Of a stretch of DNA of 42,960 nt, positions 34,020 to 42,785 are shown piece after piece. Position numbers and translations under genes: made by a program. A model generated the notes under the pieces. That model was not told the DNA's origin, did no database searches, and saw nothing but the letters and a program-made list of their open reading frames with translations. Source of the DNA: Dehalococcoidia bacterium (GTDB taxonomy: Bacteria > Chloroflexota > Dehalococcoidia > GIF9 > AB-539-J10); NCBI GenBank assembly GCA_030602785.1, contig JAUVZB010000014.1, positions 1-42,960 of the forward strand, read 5' to 3'. Numbering within the stretch: the stretch's first letter is position 1; every line of letters begins with the position of its first letter.

Positions 34020-34628
34020 CTATGAGACGGCCTTGATGCCCCTTGACAGTGCCTCGAAGTTGAGTTCGAGCCGGTCCGGCGGCAGGTTGTCCCGCAGTTC
34101 CGCCTTGATGTCCTCGACGTTGAGAGATAGCTGTCCAGTCCCGAGGAGGGCGCCGACCATGACGATGTTCATCGCGATGGGGGCGTTCAACTCAAGGGCA
34201 ATGCTCGTTGCGTCGACAAACCAGGCTGCCGCGGACATGTCTGTGACCGCCTTCTTGAGGGGCTCGATGTCAGGGTAGCTCTCCTTGGCGGCTGAAACGC
34301 TGGCGGGGATGACGGGATAGGTATTGCTGATGCAGACAGTCTCCGGGTTGCCGTACTTCTCCAGGAGCCGCAGGGTCTCAAGGGGCTCGAGGCCCAAGAT
34401 GAGATTGGCATGGCCCTCGGGCATGAGAGGGCCAGCCTCTCTCTTCTTGGAGACGCGCACGGTGCTGAAGACCGCGCCACCGCGTTGGGCCGCGCCGAAC
34501 GTCTCCCCGATGGTGACGTAGTAGCCCTTCTTGAGGTAGGCGCCACCAACGATTCCCGAAAGGAGGATATTGCCCTGTCCTCCCACTCCGCAGATGACGA
34601 GGTTCAGGGGATCAGCAGTGATAGCCAT
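34020..34628 (-). CDS. iorB: Indolepyruvate ferredoxin oxidoreductase, beta subunit
   Basis: Gamma-domain subunit of the 2-oxoacid:ferredoxin oxidoreductase family, partner of IorA. It is 202 residues, with the nucleotide-fold start NLVICGVGGQGNILLSGIVGGA near 10, then TFGAAQRGGAVFSTVRVSK near 45. The GVGGQG motif binds a cofactor at the subunit interface in related enzymes. Its ATG overlaps the iorA stop (TAATG), so both are made in equal amounts. The complex oxidatively decarboxylates aryl pyruvates to aryl-acetyl-CoA, passing electrons to ferredoxin, in amino-acid fermentation. Confidence 0.93.
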   Translation of the reverse strand: MAITADPLNLVICGVGGQGNILLSGIVGGAYLKKGYYVTIGETFGAAQRGGAVFSTVRVSKKREAGPLMPEGHANLILGLEPLETLRLLEKYGNPETVCISNTYPVIPASVSAAKESYPDIEPLKKAVTDMSAAAWFVDATSIALELNAPIAMNIVMVGALLGTGQLSLNVEDIKAELRDNLPPDRLELNFEALSRGIKAVS

Positions 34629-36541
34629 TATGCGAGTTCCTCCTTCACGATCGCCTTGCTGGGGCACAGGTCGGCGCAGAGACCACACCCGACGCAAAGG
34701 GCCTCCTGGATCTTGGCCTTCCCAGTCGTCTTGTCGTAGCCGATTCCGGGGCAGCGCAGTATGCGGTAGCAAAAGCCGCACTTGTCGCCAATGCACTTCT
34801 CGGTGTCGACCCACATCTTGTACGGATGCTTTCTTTCCTGACGCATGCGGAGCAGCTCGCACTTGCGCCGGACAATCAGGACTTTGATGCCTTTGTCGTC
34901 CTTGAGCAACTCCTGAAGCTTGGCAGTCGTTGCCTTCGTATCGAACGGGTCGACCACCTCTACGCGGCAGCCAAGGGTGCGACACAGCGCTTCCGCATCC
35001 ACCGTAGGAGTGGCCTCCTGGGTCGCGGTTCTTCCGCTCCCTGCGTGAGGCTGGAAGCCGGTCATCGCCGTGATTGCATTGTCGAGCAGGATGAGAGTCA
35101 TGTTGGACTTATTGTAGGCCGCGTTTATGAGAGCCGGTATGGAGCCATGGAAGAACGTAGAGTCGCCGCAGATGCCTATGACCGGCTGGTCGAAGCCCAG
35201 ATCGCCCAACTGGCCGAATCCGCAGGCTTCACCGACACCGCCACCCATGCAGTGGAGGGTGTTGGCCACCTGGGGGCCGTCCGGGAATACATCCATCGTG
35301 TAGCACCCGATGTCGCTTGTGACAACTGCGCTTCGACCATCGCGCTTGATGGCGTTGCCGATGGACAGGAAGGTCGCCCTGTGGGGGCAACCCGGGCACC
35401 AGATGAGTCCTCGACTGGCCACCATAGGTTTGATGACTTCGTTGATTCTCTTCTGGTAGTCGGCATCGCGCGCCGCATATTCGAGACCAAAGACCTTGCA
35501 CAGTGCGGCTATGACCTTGTCGGGGTTGTTCTCGCCGATGTAGCTCATGTGTCCCGAGGCCTTGCCGAGAATCTCGGGAGCGTCCGCGAGTCTCGCCTCT
35601 GCGACGGCCTCCTTGGCGTGAGTCTCGACGTACGGGTCAACTTCCTCGACAATGAGGACCTGTTTGGCCTTCTCGATGTGGGAGACCACCAGACGGGACG
35701 GGAATGGCCACAGTGTCCCCAGCTTCAGCATTCCGACTCGACTACCCAGACCAAGCTCCTCTATGGCGTCCAGCGAGCAGGGCTCGCCGCTGCCGCTGCA
35801 GATGATGAGGAGTTCCGGCTTCTCGGGCCCGTTGTATGTGTTGAAGGGGGACTCCTCGGAGCGCTCGCGAATCTTGGCCATCTTCTCCACGAGGATGGCG
35901 TGCTTCGGAGGCGCGATGTAGGGCGTGAATACCTTGGTCGTGTCGTACTTCGGCTTCTTCGTAGCTTTCTTGTACTCGCCAACTTGTACTCTGCCCCGGG
36001 AGTGAGCCAGTCGGGTGTAGTCGCGCAGCCAGCAGAAGATATTGAACTCCTCGGAGAGGTCGAAGAGGTACTTCGTCATCTCATATGCTTCTTGAAAACT
36101 CGAGGGCTCCAGGAGTGGCGCATTCGCCATCTGGGCCACCCAGCGGGTATCTTCCTCGTCGCCGCTGGCGTGTGACTGCGGGTCGTCGGCCACTACGACG
36201 AGCATGGCGCCGCCCTGATCTCCCAGCGTGGCCAGGTTGATATGCTGGAGCGTATCCATGGCCACGTTGAGGCCGGCGTTCTTCATCGAGCTGATGGCGC
36301 GAAGACCGGCGTAGGTAGCGGCCAGCGCTGCCTCTGCGGCGACCTTCTCATTTGTTGACCACTCGGCGTGAATCCCGGTTTCTTTGGCTACTGCAGCCAG
36401 ATTCGTGAGAATCTCGGTGGAAGGCGTGCCGGGGTAGGCAGCCGAGTACTGGACGCCTGCCTCGAGCGCCCCCCTGGCGATGGCTTCGTTTCCCTGCAGG
36501 AGGTAGCATGACCCCGCTGCAAGTTTGGCGATATTCGGCAT
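34628..36541 (-). CDS. iorA: Indolepyruvate ferredoxin oxidoreductase, alpha subunit
   Basis: Catalytic subunit, 637 residues. Order: a pyrimidine-binding domain (GNEAIARGALEAGVQYSAAYPGTPSTEI near 18, then the Glu-containing EWSTNEKVAAEAA near 60), a transketolase C-like domain near 240-330, and the thiamine-diphosphate-binding domain (CPGCPHRATF near 385, GDSTFFHGSIPALINAAYNKSNMTLILLDN near 450). A C-terminal ferredoxin domain has CIGDKCGFCYRILRCP and CVGCGLCADLCPSKAI. The second cluster is a classical 4Fe-4S motif. The first has CxxxxCxxCxxxxxCP spacing, altered from the standard. No transcription stop is seen between it and the hydratase gene 59 bp upstream. Confidence 0.95.
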   Translation of the reverse strand: MPNIAKLAAGSCYLLQGNEAIARGALEAGVQYSAAYPGTPSTEILTNLAAVAKETGIHAEWSTNEKVAAEAALAATYAGLRAISSMKNAGLNVAMDTLQHINLATLGDQGGAMLVVVADDPQSHASGDEEDTRWVAQMANAPLLEPSSFQEAYEMTKYLFDLSEEFNIFCWLRDYTRLAHSRGRVQVGEYKKATKKPKYDTTKVFTPYIAPPKHAILVEKMAKIRERSEESPFNTYNGPEKPELLIICSGSGEPCSLDAIEELGLGSRVGMLKLGTLWPFPSRLVVSHIEKAKQVLIVEEVDPYVETHAKEAVAEARLADAPEILGKASGHMSYIGENNPDKVIAALCKVFGLEYAARDADYQKRINEVIKPMVASRGLIWCPGCPHRATFLSIGNAIKRDGRSAVVTSDIGCYTMDVFPDGPQVANTLHCMGGGVGEACGFGQLGDLGFDQPVIGICGDSTFFHGSIPALINAAYNKSNMTLILLDNAITAMTGFQPHAGSGRTATQEATPTVDAEALCRTLGCRVEVVDPFDTKATTAKLQELLKDDKGIKVLIVRRKCELLRMRQERKHPYKMWVDTEKCIGDKCGFCYRILRCPGIGYDKTTGKAKIQEALCVGCGLCADLCPSKAIVKEELA

Positions 36542-36600
36542 CTTGTCCCCCTATCCTGATGTGGCATTCACTTGCGGAATATGCCTGTCCGGCATGTTGA

Positions 36601-37389
36601 CTACTCGAAACGGACCGACACGGAGCCGAGGCGGTCGAACGTCGCTCGGAAGGACGCTCCTGCTTCAACCGGCACCGCCTTCACGAGGCTGCCTGACATC
36701 ACGAACTCGCCCTTCTTGAGACTGATATCGAACTCGGCCAGCTTGTTCACGAGCCACGCAACGGACTCTGCCGGGTTGCCGAGTACGGCAGCGCCGGCTC
36801 CCGTGCTGACAACCTCGCCGTTCTTCTCCAGCACCAGGCCAATCAGCCGCAGGTCGAGGTCCTTGATTGATGTCAGTTTGCCGCCAAGTATCATCGTGGC
36901 AGCTGACGCGTTGTCCGCGATGGAGTCTTTGACCGTTATCTTCCAGTCCTTGAACCGGCTGTCAATCACCTCGAACGCGGGGAGGACGCCCTCCGTCGCA
37001 TCGAGGACCTGCGCGACGTTGACCCCCGGCCCTTTCAGGTCGCTCTTCAGCAGAAACGCTATTTCGGGCTCGATTCTCGGCAGGATGAGACTGCTCATCT
37101 GCAGGGGGGCTCCTTCGCGGACAACCATCTGGTCGACTATCATGCCGTAGTCCGGCTCTCGTATACCGAACTGGTCCTGCATGGGCTTGCTCGTCAGCCC
37201 AATCTTCTTCCCCACGATGACGGCGCCCGATTTCACCTTCGTGTCGAAGGTCGTCAACTGGACTGCATAGGCGTCCTCGTAGGCTACTTCCTTGAATCTG
37301 TCTGTGAGGGCGACTATGGGCAGACAGGACTTCTCAGCCTCAACTAGTTCGCTGGAGATTTGCTCTATCTGCTGTTTGCTGAGTGCCAT
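36601..37389 (-). CDS. 2-keto-4-pentenoate hydratase/4-oxalocrotonate decarboxylase-type protein
   Basis: A 262-residue protein of the fumarylacetoacetase-related MhpD/DmpE/DmpH group, which hydrates 2-hydroxypentadienoate or decarboxylates oxalocrotonate in meta-cleavage pathways. Visible features are GKKIGLTSKPMQDQFGI near 67, EPDYGMI near 85, the metal-binding acidic set in RIEPEIAFLLKSDL near 112, and FEVIDSRFKDWK near 145. No ring-cleavage dioxygenase or aldolase is adjacent, so a role in that pathway is inference only. ATG 37389 has AAGGAGG upstream, and a TACAAT box lies at 37443-37438. The iorAB pair follows 59 bp downstream. Confidence 0.87.
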   Translation of the reverse strand: MALSKQQIEQISSELVEAEKSCLPIVALTDRFKEVAYEDAYAVQLTTFDTKVKSGAVIVGKKIGLTSKPMQDQFGIREPDYGMIVDQMVVREGAPLQMSSLILPRIEPEIAFLLKSDLKGPGVNVAQVLDATEGVLPAFEVIDSRFKDWKITVKDSIADNASAATMILGGKLTSIKDLDLRLIGLVLEKNGEVVSTGAGAAVLGNPAESVAWLVNKLAEFDISLKKGEFVMSGSLVKAVPVEAGASFRATFDRLGSVSVRFE

Positions 37390-37437
37390 CTGACCTCCTT
37401 GCCGAGCGAAATCTGTCGATGCGGCGGGCGCGCCAGT

Positions 37438-37443
37438 ATTGTA
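37438..37443 (-). promoter_or_regulatory. -10 box of the hydratase gene
   Basis: Minus-strand TACAAT, followed by a leader of about 40 nt that ends in AAGGAGG. The -35 is poor (TGTATC at 37466-37461). Confidence 0.45.
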
Positions 37444-37592
37444 GCAGAGGAGATTGCGGCGATACATAGGGGGAAGGGGAAGTGTCCCACGTCACAAGCC
37501 CGGGGCGAGGAAGAAAGACCTGCGCGGGCAGCCTGTTTTCGGTGGCGCCGCAGGACCAGATGCCGAGTTGATCTTCATCGAGCAGCAGAAGG

Positions 37593-37621
37593 CCTTCGGG
37601 AACCCCAAGGGTTCCCGAAGG
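37593..37621 (-). terminator. Perfect 13-bp hairpin after the LarA-type gene
   Basis: CCTTCGGGAACCC (37593-37605) pairs perfectly with GGGTTCCCGAAGG (37609-37621) around a CAA loop, 38 bp past the stop of the LarA-type gene. The T tract expected for an intrinsic terminator is missing, so it may instead protect the 3' end or stop polymerase without poly-U. Confidence 0.6.
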
Positions 37622-37658
37622 CACAGCGTTCCTTCAAGTCGGGTGGACGCGCGGGAAC

Positions 37659-38894
37659 CTACTCGGGGAAGTACTGGACCGTGACGTCGGGGATAACCGC
37701 GACCTTTGCCTTGTCCCCGTATGTGGCCTTGAGCGATTCAATCGTGTCAGGCCAGTTCCTGGTGAAGTTGATCTGGTCGTAGGGCGCCACCCAGTCACCG
37801 CCGACGTAGTCAGGGTATGGCTGCATGACGGTGAGTCTCTTAGTGTTCGCCGGGAGTTCGGTCTTGGGCGCGAAATTCCTTCCTCCCAGGTTCTTGCCGA
37901 AGCTCCTGCTCCAGTAGTGGTTGATCTGTCCCTCGGGTGTGACAACCACTATCACGAAGTCTCCTCCGCTCTGCTTGAGCAAGGGGGTGGCTACGTAGGG
38001 TGCGAGCACCATCTCGTTGGCTTTCGCAAAGCAGTTGGCCACGACGATGTCGCAGTCCTCTACCATGTCAGAGGCGTAGAAATCCTTCGCGACCTTCACG
38101 CCTGCAACATGTTCGTCCACGACATCTCCCACGAACAGGTGGGTGACCTGCCGCTTCAGGTTGAAGATGCAGTCGACCTTCACGTCAAGGCCGGCCATGC
38201 GGGCCGCATCGTTCATGTCGAGCTTGAGGATATTGCCCTCGTACTTGCCTATTCCACAGGTCTCGCTGGGGCCGAGGCGCGTGTGATTCAGGTCAATGGT
38301 GGTGATGGACGCCACGCCGGGCAGGATTATCTTGCTGCCGCCGCCGTAGCCGCTCATGGGGTGAGGGACGATGGCGCCGATGCCGATCTTCAGGTCGCAC
38401 ATCATCACTTCGGCGTTGAACTGCATCGGGATGCCCTGCGGGCTGGGGCCGACGGATGTGCAATTCTCGTAAGGGTTGTGGTTGTAGACCGGGAACCGGG
38501 CCATGACGTCCGAGCCCAGTTTCTTGGTGAAGTCGATGGCGGTCATCGAGCCGTGGGCGCCAATGGCGGCCACGAACCGGATCTGGCCATCCTTGATGCC
38601 TGCTGCGGCCAGCTCCTCAAGGACGTAAGGGACGATGTCCGCAGAGGGAGTGCCCCTGGACATGTCGTCGAACAGGATTACGACCTCTTTCTTGCCCCTT
38701 GCCATCTCTCGAATGGTCTTAGTGCCGATGGGGTTCGCAAACGCCTTTCGGAAGCCTGCGTCATCCAGGGGAGGGGTTCCCTCGCCTTTCATGTTGCAGA
38801 CGGTGACATCCCAGGAGGCCGGAAAATCGACCTCAAGCTCGGTGTCGCCGTACCATGCCAGTATCGGAAGGGTGACTTTCTTCGTTTCGCTCAT
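37659..38894 (-). CDS. LarA-family (DUF2088) nickel-pincer racemase/epimerase
   Basis: A 411-residue homologue of lactate racemase LarA, which uses a nickel-pincer nucleotide cofactor to invert 2-hydroxy acids. The ligands can be placed by spacing. His178, Lys188 and His204 (in VPHPMSGYGGGSKIILPGV, then DLNHTR) have the same 10- and 16-residue gaps as His174, Lys184 and His200 of the Lactobacillus enzyme as I recall it. His114 (GAHGSM) and Asp77/Arg80 (DDMSR) fit His108 and Asp72/Arg75. A functional racemase fold is therefore likely, but specificity is open. The cofactor genes larB, larC and larE are not in the window. It is the last gene of the operon led by the glycerate kinase and starts at ATG 38894 after GGAGGA. 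Confidence 0.85.
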   Translation of the reverse strand: MSETKKVTLPILAWYGDTELEVDFPASWDVTVCNMKGEGTPPLDDAGFRKAFANPIGTKTIREMARGKKEVVILFDDMSRGTPSADIVPYVLEELAAAGIKDGQIRFVAAIGAHGSMTAIDFTKKLGSDVMARFPVYNHNPYENCTSVGPSPQGIPMQFNAEVMMCDLKIGIGAIVPHPMSGYGGGSKIILPGVASITTIDLNHTRLGPSETCGIGKYEGNILKLDMNDAARMAGLDVKVDCIFNLKRQVTHLFVGDVVDEHVAGVKVAKDFYASDMVEDCDIVVANCFAKANEMVLAPYVATPLLKQSGGDFVIVVVTPEGQINHYWSRSFGKNLGGRNFAPKTELPANTKRLTVMQPYPDYVGGDWVAPYDQINFTRNWPDTIESLKATYGDKAKVAVIPDVTVQYFPE

Positions 38895-38918
38895 TGTTCC
38901 TCCTGCTGCCACATATCG

Positions 38919-40073
38919 CTACGCGAGTGGGCCTACGATGAAGATTCCATTATAGCTTGACTGGTCGAGTATCTCAGCCTTCGTCTGCTTGCCGGACGCG
39001 ACCTCGAGTGCCTCCGCATACAGGGCCTCGCCTATCTCCTTCATGTGGTCCTTGCTGGCAAGGTCCACGTAGAAATCCATGTTGTCCTTCATTTTCTCAT
39101 AAGTGGGGCCGTTGGCAGTGACCTTGATGACCGGGACGAATGGCGAGCCAAGAGGAGTTCCTCTTCCTGTCGAGAAGAACATGACAGTCGAGCCCGCCGC
39201 GGCAAGCGCCGTCAACGAGGGGGCGTCGTAGCCCGGACCATCAACGATGGACAGGCCGCCCTTCTTTGGCCGCTCTCCGTACTCGTACATCTCCTGGATG
39301 GGCTGACTGCCGCCCTTCGAGATGGCCCCGAGGGACTTCTCTTCGATAGAGGTCAGCCCTCCCTCGATGTTGCCCTTCGTGGGGTTGGTGCCCCTCATGT
39401 CCACGCCCTTCTCAAGGAAGCGCTCCTCGTAGCGGCGCACCATGTCCGTTATCTGCTTCCCGACCTCCGGGGTCACGGCACGCTGCGCCAGAAGATGCTC
39501 GGCCCCGATGAACTCTGTCGTTTCGCTGAATACCGCGCTGCCGCCCTTCTTGACGAGGATGTCGAAGGCGGAGCCGATTGCAGGGTTGGCCCCCAGGCCG
39601 GATGTTGTATCCGAGCCGCCACACTCCGAACCGAACATCAGCCTCGACTCGTCGAACTGTTCCCTCTTCACCAGTGAGGCGTCGCTCACCATGTGGCGGG
39701 CGATGCGCACGCCCTTCTCAACGGTGGCAATCGTGCCACCCACCTGCTGTATCACGAGCTTTTCGACGGGCTTCCCTGATTGCGCGATGGCCTCAGCGAT
39801 GCCATCGACATCGATTGGCTCGCAACCCAGGCTGACGAGCACGACGGCCGCGATGTTCGGGTTCAGGGCGAGGTTGGTGAATGTCCGGTTGACGAGCTCG
39901 AGGTCATACGGAGCGAGTGCACATCCCTGGTGGTGCAGAAAGGGCACCGTGCCCTTGACGTTGTCGCTTATCTGCCGCGCGGTAGCGGCCGAGCACACCA
40001 CCGTCGGAATCACTGCCACATAATTCCGGGTGCCAACGGAGCCATCGGAGCGAGGGTAGCCCCAGAAGCTCAC
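38919..40073 (-). CDS. UxaA-family dehydratase/lyase, large subunit
   Basis: A 384-residue C-terminal domain protein of the altronate/galactarate dehydratase family. It has GTRNYVAVIPTVVCSAATAR near 15-35, HHQGCALAPYD near 47, VSLGCEPID near 78, CGGSDTTSGLGANPAIG near 150, GNIEGGLTSIEEKSLG near 235 and STGRGTPLGS near 305. The four conserved cysteine regions likely hold the iron centre. In UxaA this is fused to a SAF domain of about 100 residues. Here it is a separate gene whose start overlaps the SAF gene by 4 bp, as in the sulfolactate sulfo-lyase pair SuyA/SuyB. The SLGAISKGG and YDAPSLT segments look more like UxaA. Substrate: a sugar acid or a 2-hydroxy sulfonate. Confidence 0.87.
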   Translation of the reverse strand: MSFWGYPRSDGSVGTRNYVAVIPTVVCSAATARQISDNVKGTVPFLHHQGCALAPYDLELVNRTFTNLALNPNIAAVVLVSLGCEPIDVDGIAEAIAQSGKPVEKLVIQQVGGTIATVEKGVRIARHMVSDASLVKREQFDESRLMFGSECGGSDTTSGLGANPAIGSAFDILVKKGGSAVFSETTEFIGAEHLLAQRAVTPEVGKQITDMVRRYEERFLEKGVDMRGTNPTKGNIEGGLTSIEEKSLGAISKGGSQPIQEMYEYGERPKKGGLSIVDGPGYDAPSLTALAAAGSTVMFFSTGRGTPLGSPFVPVIKVTANGPTYEKMKDNMDFYVDLASKDHMKEIGEALYAEALEVASGKQTKAEILDQSSYNGIFIVGPLA

Positions 40074-40375
40074 TTTGCTGCTTCCTTCACCACATCGCCG
40101 CGCCCACGGGTGCTTGCCACGTTGTGAACGTGCACGTGTTCTCCTGCCTTGATGTCTTTCGTTGCCTCCCCGATGACCTCACCATATTTCAGGATACTTG
40201 AGCCGAGCTTGATGTCGACAAGGCTGAACTTGTGACCGAACAGTATCGAGTTCACAAGCTTCACCGACAACTGGTTCTTGTCTACCTCCAGCGCGACGCT
40301 GTCGCCCGCGCTCAGGTCTGCAAGTGCGGTAGCTACGTTGTCCTTGCCGTTCAGTACGATTGCGGTTCTCTCCAT
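40070..40375 (-). CDS. UxaA-family dehydratase/lyase, small SAF-domain subunit
   Basis: A 101-residue SAF-domain protein. It starts RTAIVLNGKDNVATALADL, then a core with GHKFSLVDIKLGSSILKYGEVIG near 47-70 and the AGEHVHVHNV end near 80, as in the N-terminal module of altronate and galactarate dehydratases and in SuyA. The histidine in HVHVHN is conserved in the family. It overlaps the large-subunit gene by 4 bp (ATGA), so the two act together as one enzyme. AAAGGAG precedes ATG 40375. The kinase gene ends 21 bp upstream. Confidence 0.88.
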   Translation of the reverse strand: MERTAIVLNGKDNVATALADLSAGDSVALEVDKNQLSVKLVNSILFGHKFSLVDIKLGSSILKYGEVIGEATKDIKAGEHVHVHNVASTRGRGDVVKEAAK

Positions 40376-40396
40376 GATTCTCCTTTCCGGAAAGCG

Positions 40397-41785
40397 TTAT
40401 GTTTCACACAGCCAGACCATTATATCATTCACATTAGTGCCTGTCGGGCCCGTAATGTTCAGGAACTTCTCGCCTGTCCGTGCCTCCATGTCTCTGAAGA
40501 AGCCATACGAGTCGTAGGAGTCAAGATACTCTGCCGGGGTGAGTCCGTGCTGTTCCGCGAGGCGCAGAGTGTCTCCGGTTACGACTGCCCCCGCTGCCGG
40601 CGAAGTGCCGTCAATGCCATCGGTCCCCGATGCCAACACTGCCCAAGGCGTGCCCGCAATCCTGGTTGCCGCCAGCAGCGCGTAGTGAAGCATGCGGCCA
40701 CCTGTTCCGTGTGCATGCCCGGGGACGGTGACAATCGGCTCTCCTCCGCATAGCACGAGCGTGGGATGCGCGGAGCCTGCAGCCAGCCCAACGGCGTGGC
40801 TGTAATGCTGTTCCAGGGCTTCCTCGACCGGGCCCGTGACGGGCTTCTGCTCCAGGTGCACGCATGCGGCCAGGTCCCGGTGTTGGGCAAGGGAGAGTTC
40901 TTTCAAGAGGGAGTCTAGCAGCACTGCGTTGGAAGCGACGACGATACTCTGCGTGCGCGGCATCAGTTGGTCTCGCCACAGGCTGGCCCTGGAGTCCTCG
41001 TCCGGGTCGCCACGCAGCAGGCACGCGCGGGATGCCTCGGGGATGCGCTCCCAGAGACCGTGGTTTTCCAGGACGCGAACGGCGTCGCGATACGTCGTCG
41101 GGTCAGGCACGGTAGGTCCTGAAGCGATGCTGGACAGGTCGTCTCCAATGACGTCTGACAGGACAAGCGTCAGGAACTCGGCCCGGGGCGCCGCCATGCG
41201 GAGCCGCCCTCCCTTCACCCGGGACAGGTGCTTCCTCACGGTGTTGATTTCCTGAATGGTTGGCCCGCCCGTGACCAGAACGCGATTGGTCGCGCGGAAA
41301 TCCTCAAGGGAGATTCCCTCCTGTGGGAGGGAGAGCAGAGATGAGCCTCCGCCGGAAATCAGGGCCACTACGAGGTCGTTGGAAGAGGCTGCTGAAAGCA
41401 GCTCCAGGGCCGCCCTGGCGCCCTGGACGCTGGCATCGTTGGGGTTGGGGTGGTCGGCGGCGAAGAGTCTGGCCTTCGGAATCCTGGCGTCAGCCTGGTC
41501 TCTGTAGACGTTGAGGGTGCCGCCCACGAACTTGGCCCACAGGCGGGCATCTTGCTTGAGCACGTCGGTGACCGCCCTGGCCATTTGGACACCGGCCTTA
41601 CCGGCGCCAACGAGGAAGATGTTCTCAATGTGGGCCAGTGCGTAGCTTCTCGCACCGGCAGCGAGGACCTGCTCTTGTGGCTCCCAGAGGAGGGCTCTAC
41701 GAGTCGCCAGATAGGCGTCAGCAAGGGGCAGAACGGTATCCCTGAAGAGGGCGAGGAGCTTCTCCGCGCTGCTGCCTTCTTGCAT
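40397..41785 (-). CDS. DUF4147-type glycerate 2-kinase
   Basis: A 462-residue kinase of the GckA/MOFRL type, which makes 2-phosphoglycerate from glycerate. The N-terminal domain (about 1-240) has VGAGKAGVQMA near 65, ADHPNPN near 110, ISGGGSSLLSLP near 140, and the loop INTVRKHLSRVKGGRL near 180. The MOFRL domain near 320-430 carries CGGEPIVTV and ASGTDGIDGTSPAAGAV. Glycerate is the usual end product of sugar-acid or tartronate routes, which fits the downstream dehydratase. I start at ATG 41785 (AAGGAAG upstream). An earlier GTG/ATG near 41842-41836 would add about 17 residues, and the open frame up to 41962 overlaps the promoter. Confidence 0.9.
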   Translation of the reverse strand: MQEGSSAEKLLALFRDTVLPLADAYLATRRALLWEPQEQVLAAGARSYALAHIENIFLVGAGKAGVQMARAVTDVLKQDARLWAKFVGGTLNVYRDQADARIPKARLFAADHPNPNDASVQGARAALELLSAASSNDLVVALISGGGSSLLSLPQEGISLEDFRATNRVLVTGGPTIQEINTVRKHLSRVKGGRLRMAAPRAEFLTLVLSDVIGDDLSSIASGPTVPDPTTYRDAVRVLENHGLWERIPEASRACLLRGDPDEDSRASLWRDQLMPRTQSIVVASNAVLLDSLLKELSLAQHRDLAACVHLEQKPVTGPVEEALEQHYSHAVGLAAGSAHPTLVLCGGEPIVTVPGHAHGTGGRMLHYALLAATRIAGTPWAVLASGTDGIDGTSPAAGAVVTGDTLRLAEQHGLTPAEYLDSYDSYGFFRDMEARTGEKFLNITGPTGTNVNDIMVWLCET

Positions 41786-41881
41786 GGTCGGGACTTCCTT
41801 CTCCTCAAAGAGGGAGGGCAGGGCCTCCTCGCCCAACATCTGCACGGCGTCCGGCCCGGCGCGAAGAGGCGAGTCGCGCGA

Positions 41882-41887
41882 AGTATA
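41882..41887 (-). promoter_or_regulatory. -10 box of the hydroxy-acid operon
   Basis: Minus-strand TATACT, placed about 100 nt before the kinase start. No good -35 is present at the expected spacing, so expression may need an activator. Confidence 0.45.
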
Positions 41888-41963
41888 GCATGGGCCTATG
41901 CGGGTTGCACGGAGCGAGATGGGCCGGGCGCCGGAGGCCAGTCCTCTCGCGCAACTGAGCATC

Positions 41964-42024: not shown

Positions 42025-42785
42025 TCTGCCCGGTGGCGGCATGTGACCGCGGCCGCCTTCACCACCCACCCGGTTGGCCCGGGAGGGCGGTCCATTGTAG
42101 GGGCGGACCTCTGTGTCCGCCCGTCGGGCATGGTTTGTCACGTAGGGGCGGACCTCTGTGTCCGCCCGTGGTGGTGTGGTGGGGTGGTTTCGAATGTAGG
42201 GGCCTGGCATGCCTGGCCCGTCGCCATGTCGTCACGCAACGCCGCAAAGGTCAACACAACCGTGAACGGCACACTACCCTGCGGGCGGACACGGAGGTCC
42301 GCCCCTACACAGGAGCCACGCAACGCCGCAACGGTCAACACAACCGTGAACGGCACACAACCGTGCGGGCGGACACGGAGGTCCGCCCCTACACAGGAGT
42401 CACGCAACGCCGCAAAGGTCAACACAACCGTGCGGGCGGACACGGAGGTCCGCCCCTACACAGGAGTCACGCAACGCCGCAAAGGTCAACACAACCGTGC
42501 GGGCGGACACGGACGTCCGCCCCTACACAGGAGTCACACAACGCCGCAGAGGTCAACACAGCCTTGAACGACACACTACCCTGCGGGCGGACACGGAGGT
42601 CCGCCCCTACACAGGAGTCACGCAACGCCGCAAAGGTCAACACAACCGTGAACGGCACACAACCCGACGGGCGAGGCATGCCTCGCCCCTACGGCTACGC
42701 TTGGGCTCGTGGTCACCGGCCTCTTCCACCCCTTCCTGTTCAACATCACCATCTCCTGCATGCGGACATTTTCGCTGAACGCTTA
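42001..42785. mobile_element. Candidate non-coding element bounded by inverted repeats
   Basis: TAAGCGGTCAGCGATCG (from 42001) and the reverse complement of the segment ending at 42785 (TAAGCGTTCAGCGAAAA) match at about 18 of 24 aligned positions. They face each other and enclose the palindrome array. The 785-bp interval codes for nothing credible and could be a decayed insertion sequence or a non-autonomous derivative. No target duplication was identified. Confidence 0.3.
42097..42692. repeat. Array of 27-bp palindromic repeats
   Basis: The core is a perfect 8-bp inverted repeat, GGGCGGAC-ACGGAG-GTCCGCCC, followed by CTAC. Two inverted copies lie at 42097-42123 and 42142-42168. Five direct copies lie at 42282, 42366, 42433, 42500 (with ACGGAC in place of ACGGAG) and 42584. 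Two variant palindromes with other arms lie at 42196-42220 (CCTGGCATGCCTGG) and 42668-42692 (GCGAGGCATGCCTCGC). Start-to-start distances among the direct copies are 84, 67, 67, 84 and 84. The linker is a conserved GTCACGCAACGCCGC then AAAGGTCAACACAACCGTG, and the long units carry an additional 17-bp AACGGCACACAACCGTG. Confidence 0.85.

Follow-up and report, generated by a model that had tools for sequence, protein, structure and literature searches.

Nickel-pincer enzymes of the LarA superfamily include racemases and epimerases of lactate, malate, 2-hydroxyglutarate and gluconate (PMC7583248, PMC11770544), and over half of the superfamily has a predicted function (PMC11770544). Dehydratases of the UxaA/GarD type combine a SAF domain with a large domain and conserve four cysteines, except in the sulfolactate sulfo-lyase (Watanabe et al., PMC6336799), and a two-gene form is known for the heteromeric L-fuconate dehydratase of Paraburkholderia mimosarum (PMC6336799). 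The sulfo-lyase, SuyAB, belongs to the same superfamily and also has two subunits. Characterised class II (MOFRL) glycerate 2-kinases form 2-phosphoglycerate, and that of Thermoproteus tenax belongs to a non-phosphorylative Entner-Doudoroff branch (PMC2063504). Here we analyse a stretch of 42,960 nucleotides from a sediment Dehalococcoidia bacterium (contig JAUVZB010000014.1 of assembly GCA_030602785.1; the window) in which a LarA-like protein, a two-part UxaA-type dehydratase and a class II glycerate 2-kinase (GLK) are encoded by four intact, tightly packed minus-strand open reading frames (ORFs). Unlike the T. tenax kinase, the window GLK has a bacterial host and shares an operon with LarA and UxaA genes.

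We lean slightly towards reading this operon as a module in which polyhydroxy acids are epimerised and then dehydrated. The LarA-family protein would carry the nickel-pincer nucleotide that the larC-larB-larE products make and would invert C2 of a 2,3-dihydroxy (sugar-type) acid, and the heteromer of the SAF and UxaA-large subunits would turn the right epimer into a 2-keto-3-deoxy acid by dehydration. This acid would then be cleaved or oxidised by enzymes encoded elsewhere in the genome and, where cleavage gives a C3 fragment, the class II GLK would trap D-glycerate as 2-phosphoglycerate for enolase. More generally, and tentatively, two-part UxaA dehydratases may repeatedly have acquired a polyhydroxy-acid epimerase as partner from an unnamed nickel-pincer subfamily, one that has a C-terminal active-site set of its own.

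The strongest argument for a substrate common to racemase and dehydratase is that the pair has formed repeatedly. Counting a LarA-subfamily gene and a UxaA or SAF gene as adjacent when they lie on the same strand with a gap of at most 400 bp, we found UxaA/SAF next to LarA in 14 of the LarA rows examined, at loci fetched by LarA; L107 and L165, where the genes are on opposite strands or several kb apart, were left out of the count. The LarA tree requires five changes of the adjacency label, and on the dehydratase tree five label changes are forced by well-supported branches. A single clade of LarA-adjacent dehydratases was rejected (approximately unbiased test, p = 6.7e-7), and because the adjacent dehydratases are not one clade the pair formed more than once. 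A rough binomial estimate of chance adjacency gives P ~2e-5 (5 of 40 clades, assuming 0.8% per gene), which is indicative only, the number of clades being itself an estimate. Since the pairing turns up in several genera and unrelated lineages, a genuine step of inversion followed by dehydration probably lies behind it, and its recurrence supports the central idea of an earlier note on this DNA, that racemase and lyase act on one substrate.

Gene order varies among the pairs. SAF-UxaA-LarA is found in the window's genus, in L095 and L102, and in three Dehalococcoidales (L123, L130 and L134) that extend it with a Zn-alcohol dehydrogenase (SAF-UxaA-LarA-Zn-ADH); LarA-SAF-UxaA is found in L053, L054 and the actinomycetotal L163, and L056 holds a LarA-UxaA-FAD oxidase cluster. 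At L095, genes for a PTE-family protein (possible lactonase), a 2-hydroxyacid dehydrogenase and a mandelate-racemase-family protein adjoin the pair. Canonical LarA proteins can be found near dehydratases as well: one adjoins SAF-UxaA in L232, and at the C22 locus of the window's own genome (L061) another lies less tightly near UxaA, together with FAD-linked oxidases. A search for the four-gene order found it in full within the genus and, well outside the genus, its SAF-UxaA-LarA part; neither a characterised clade holding the window enzyme nor a known identical operon was found, and the refutation test set in the earlier note therefore did not overturn its reading. COG2721 and COG3875 occur together in no paper of the open-access library searched, subscription journals and supplementary tables lying outside the search; the association may be listed in Table S1 of Desguin 2020.

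Two further arrangements were seen. At L095:10-4373, a mandelate-racemase-family gene, an FAD oxidoreductase gene, a PTE-family gene and a LarA gene stand in a row that is convergent with LarA-UxaA-SAF. On a Sporomusa termitida plasmid, a TTT transporter gene is followed by genes for a Lar_N protein, SAF and UxaA (L082:5335-8161). This row resembles the window operon in a host outside Chloroflexota but was not counted, as its Lar_N protein fails our LarA profile and is perhaps another enzyme; the plasmid-borne LarA matches are all distant canonical types.

The AlphaFold model of the window LarA-like protein (pLDDT 84) retains the two-domain LarA fold overall, with 387 residues aligning to LarA 8ezf (Z 41.5, root-mean-square deviation 2.5). 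In an alignment of 24 subfamily members, D77, R80, H114, H178, K188 and H204 are invariant. These correspond to six residues of LarA: the nickel-ligand histidine and the cofactor-tethering lysine (H200 and K184) are present as H204 and K188, the two catalytic histidines (H108 and H174) as H114 and H178, and the near-active-site D72 and R75 as D77 and R80. The C-terminal half has invariants of its own, namely N287, E294, PxGQxxH, FG, GR and PDxTxQY, along with a near-invariant K-x-N-E, and the only Pfam match of the protein is to the Lar_N domain. It scores far below all NCBIfam LarA equivalog cut-offs (best 215.6 versus 500 bits), and the set of LarA models matched is identical for all 24 members. 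Since the cofactor and catalytic residues are kept but the canonical C-terminal set is absent, we file the protein, on its sequence, as a LarA superfamily member with its own substrate pocket and not as a lactate racemase. GTDB contigs hold 306 matches to the subfamily, and the top 80 come from Dehalococcoidia, deltaproteobacterial, Actinomycetota, Bathyarchaeota, Dethiobacter, Peptococcaceae and other metagenome-assembled genomes (MAGs); in a broad sample of the phylum it is sparse, a strict threshold leaving 6 of 400 genomes. In L072, L047 and L096, LarA relatives lie beside genes for corrinoid proteins and UroD/MttB-family methyltransferases, which suggests methylated hydroxy-acid or amine substrates there.

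Family searches located LarC and LarE on contig C133 of the same genome, and a LarB-like ORF between larC and larE was recognised by eye. The predicted nickel-pincer nucleotide biosynthesis genes larC-larB-larE are thus encoded in the genome, and fold, residues and cofactor genes agree on a nickel-pincer-type racemase, as had been claimed. An ORF for an ABC-type ATPase lies upstream of these lar genes.

The split enzyme is, as judged by domains, residues and trees, a UxaA-type dehydratase. Its SAF, GD_AH_second and GD_AH_C domains are spread over two polypeptides. The SAF subunit is 49% identical over 80 amino acids to the N-terminal domain of E. coli UxaA, and the best solved relative of the large subunit is GarD (6u7l, E 6e-59). 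Large-subunit C27, C51, C84 and C151 align with the cysteines of E. coli UxaA and GarD, whereas SuyB of Methylobacterium oryzae (L167) lacks three of the four; this reference was identified by its neighbours, a TauE/SafE sulfite exporter and an Ldh-family dehydrogenase. In trees including UxaA, GarD and SuyB, the window large subunit has as neighbours split enzymes from its own genome and from related ones, and it falls outside the E. coli UxaA/GarD clade. It is also apart from SuyB in the fuller tree, whereas in a careful tree of smaller size SuyB forms a long branch of unsure position. None of the assayed enzymes that could be placed, a set without the heteromeric L-fuconate dehydratase and other D-altronate-family dehydratases, falls in the split-enzyme clade. 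Of the earlier label, a split UxaA/Suy-type lyase, the split UxaA part stands; a Suy-type sulfo-lyase was rejected on the four cysteines and the separation from SuyB in the fuller tree. Among the nearest split relatives outside the genus with informative context, genes for a 2-keto-3-deoxygluconate permease, alpha-ketoglutarate-semialdehyde dehydrogenase and DHDPS-family proteins adjoin the dehydratase, and these contexts point to sugar acids as its substrates.

GLK is homologous to the solved glycerate kinases PH0495 (1x3l) and TM1585 (2b8n), which together with its domains bears out its description as a class II glycerate 2-kinase. Two of the three GLK genes in the genome adjoin enolase (L060:2893-6681 and L215:6200-8958), and one of these also lies beside a gene for a PTE-family protein (possible lactonase), on the contig that also carries six UxaA genes and the lar cluster. 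The enolase neighbours of these paralogues are consistent with formation of 2-phosphoglycerate and entry of D-glycerate into lower glycolysis. The earlier note had found no aldolase or dehydrogenase of the classical route in the operon. That concern is eased by remote candidates, since elsewhere in the genome there are three DHDPS-family genes, which are aldolase candidates, and several FAD-linked hydroxyacid oxidases. One of the DHDPS-family genes (on C36) adjoins a PfkB-like sugar-kinase ORF recognised by eye.

The host genome, judged from its relatives to be a Dehalococcoidia MAG (2.57 Mb in 141 contigs), has ten UxaA-family copies. Six of them are on contig C133 (L059 and L060), together with a TRAP transporter, an IlvD/EDD dehydratase, an FAD-linked oxidase, enolase and GLK, and larC-larB-larE come later on the same contig. 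This stretch of C133 looks like a hydroxy-acid catabolic region.

The arrangement noted earlier, with four minus-strand genes, a -10 box in front and a perfect hairpin at the end, was confirmed on the sequence. The intergenic distances are 21, -4 and 24 bp; the overlap between the SAF and UxaA-large genes reads GTGA, and the LarA-like gene starts at ATG 38894, with AGGAGG upstream. By shuffling, the chance expectation for the front element is 0.01 per window. Its TGnTATACTT recurs in each of the four genomes compared, whereas the remaining leader is not conserved. The terminal hairpin was missed by a standard terminator scan because no T run follows it. In five relatives, the same gap contains a different perfect hairpin in two (L087 and L088) and none in three. 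Five same-genus genomes keep the gene order, and GLK is kept in the four whose contig extends to it. Background synteny within the genus is likewise high, however, and since the hisS-gyrB order is equally kept there, we discounted within-genus order as functional evidence.

Table 1. Features of the four-gene operon and of the transcription unit that follows it
Feature	Position	Strand	Evidence
Extended -10 promoter element TGCTATACTT, before the GLK gene	41881..41890	-	TGnTATACTT conserved in four genomes
Class II (MOFRL) glycerate 2-kinase, GLK	40397..41785	-	Pfam DUF4147 and MOFRL; PDB homologues
SAF-domain small subunit of split UxaA-type dehydratase	40070..40375	-	Pfam SAF; E. coli UxaA N-terminal domain
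Large subunit of split UxaA-type dehydratase	38919..40073	-	Pfam GD_AH_second and GD_AH_C; cysteines; trees
LarA-superfamily nickel-pincer 2-hydroxy-acid racemase/epimerase (predicted), unnamed subfamily	37659..38894	-	Lar_N; residues; fold model
Perfect hairpin, 14-bp stem and 3-nt loop; probable end of the four-gene operon	37592..37622	-	
Second extended -10 element TGCTACAATACT, TGnTACAAT type, before the next transcription unit	37435..37446	-	Conserved in alignment of relatives
FAH-superfamily hydratase/decarboxylase (4-oxalocrotonate decarboxylase / 2-oxopent-4-enoate hydratase type); pathway membership uncertain	36601..37392	-	
IorA, indolepyruvate-type 2-oxoacid:ferredoxin oxidoreductase alpha	34628..36541	-	TIGR03336 580.8 bits, below cut-off 650.9
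IorB, 2-oxoacid:ferredoxin oxidoreductase beta	34020..34610	-	

Several observations weigh against an epimerase-dehydratase module. Pfam LarA_C matches none of the 24 subfamily members, and in a profile alignment to L. plantarum LarA its Tyr294, Gln295 and Lys298 are not conserved in the subfamily; for these reasons racemisation by the subfamily is not guaranteed. Desguin et al. (PMC7583248) likewise considered that inversion of the stereocentre may fail in homologues without H174 or K298. Most LarA relatives are found away from UxaA, near LutBC-like, HpaB, AOR, IorAB and transporter genes, with FAD oxidases and 2-hydroxyacid dehydrogenases as further frequent neighbours, and the subfamily therefore probably serves several substrates. 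The IorAB, LutB/C-like, FAD oxidase, AOR and 2-hydroxyacid dehydrogenase neighbours fit 2-hydroxy-acid metabolism and show that substrates differ between loci. GLK is linked to LarA-UxaA within the genus only, which makes its place in the pathway the weakest step, and the operon holds no transporter gene.

These points leave room for other readings. The one we take most seriously, though we think it unlikely, is a longer cluster in which racemase and dehydratase make a 2-oxo acid that FAH and IorAB convert to an acyl-CoA, the kinase being incidental. Within the genus the order is kept through IorB, LarA lies near IorA in several other loci, and in the related Dehalococcoidia L217, L218, L223 and L053 the genes SAF-UxaA-FrhB-IorA-IorB form one cluster, with LarA in front in L053. 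However, FAH-IorAB in the window has its own conserved promoter and is preceded by the hairpin, and in L228 it occurs with neither UxaA nor LarA nearby. Rather less probable is a glycerate-centred unit, in which the racemase would interconvert L- and D-glycerate for a D-specific kinase while the dehydratase serves an independent step. Racemase and kinase do share an operon, and some LarA homologues racemise glycerate efficiently (LarAH43, PMC11770544), but outside the genus it is UxaA, not the kinase, that accompanies the subfamily, whose pocket lacks residues of the lactate/glycerate type.

The departures from canonical LarA could also mean that the nickel cofactor serves some hydride transfer other than C2 inversion. 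The loss of Lys298, Gln295 and Tyr294 and the distinct C-terminal invariants, such as the K-x-N-E and PxGQxxH motifs, would fit such a change, but both catalytic histidines and the cofactor-tethering lysine are invariant, and we give this idea little weight. Least probable is a sulfolactate pathway, in which the racemase would supply (2R)-3-sulfolactate to a SuyAB-type sulfo-lyase. The two-gene architecture and the common superfamily recall SuyAB, but the cysteines and the fuller tree set the window enzyme apart, and its gene context differs: the genes identified in the operon and along the neighbouring FAH-IorAB-hisS-gyrB stretch include no recognisable sulfite exporter or sulfolactate dehydrogenase.

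If the tentative idea of repeated recruitment is correct, it would offer anaerobic sediment bacteria a general way to feed several stereoisomers into one dehydratase. The epimerise-then-dehydrate reading would also give concrete chemistry for the use of stereochemically mixed hydroxy acids by uncultured Dehalococcoidia. A similar role was proposed for enolase-family racemases in a SAR202 pangenome study (PMC6946804). The window LarA branch occurs in MAGs of Chloroflexota, deltaproteobacteria, Actinomycetota and Bathyarchaeota and could be assigned to none of the curated subfamilies with which it was compared. With a sugar-acid dehydratase as its recurrent partner, the search for a substrate can concentrate on polyhydroxy acids, and the function of this unnamed nickel-enzyme branch becomes directly testable.

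Downstream of the operon, FAH-IorA-IorB (34020-37392) keeps its order in the same genomes. Since this unit starts behind its own conserved element, the four-gene limit of the operon is reasonable. We did not adopt a single operon that includes FAH-IorAB, given that promoter, the hairpin and the separate FAH-IorAB of L228. In one close relative (L039:7009-7824), a DUF169-like gene is inserted between larA and the FAH gene, and a match to this gene also precedes FAH-IorAB in L228. Upstream of the operon, positions 42231-42673 contain imperfect tandem repeats with periods of 67, 84 and 151 and the unit GGGCGGACACGGAGGTCCGCCCCTACA.

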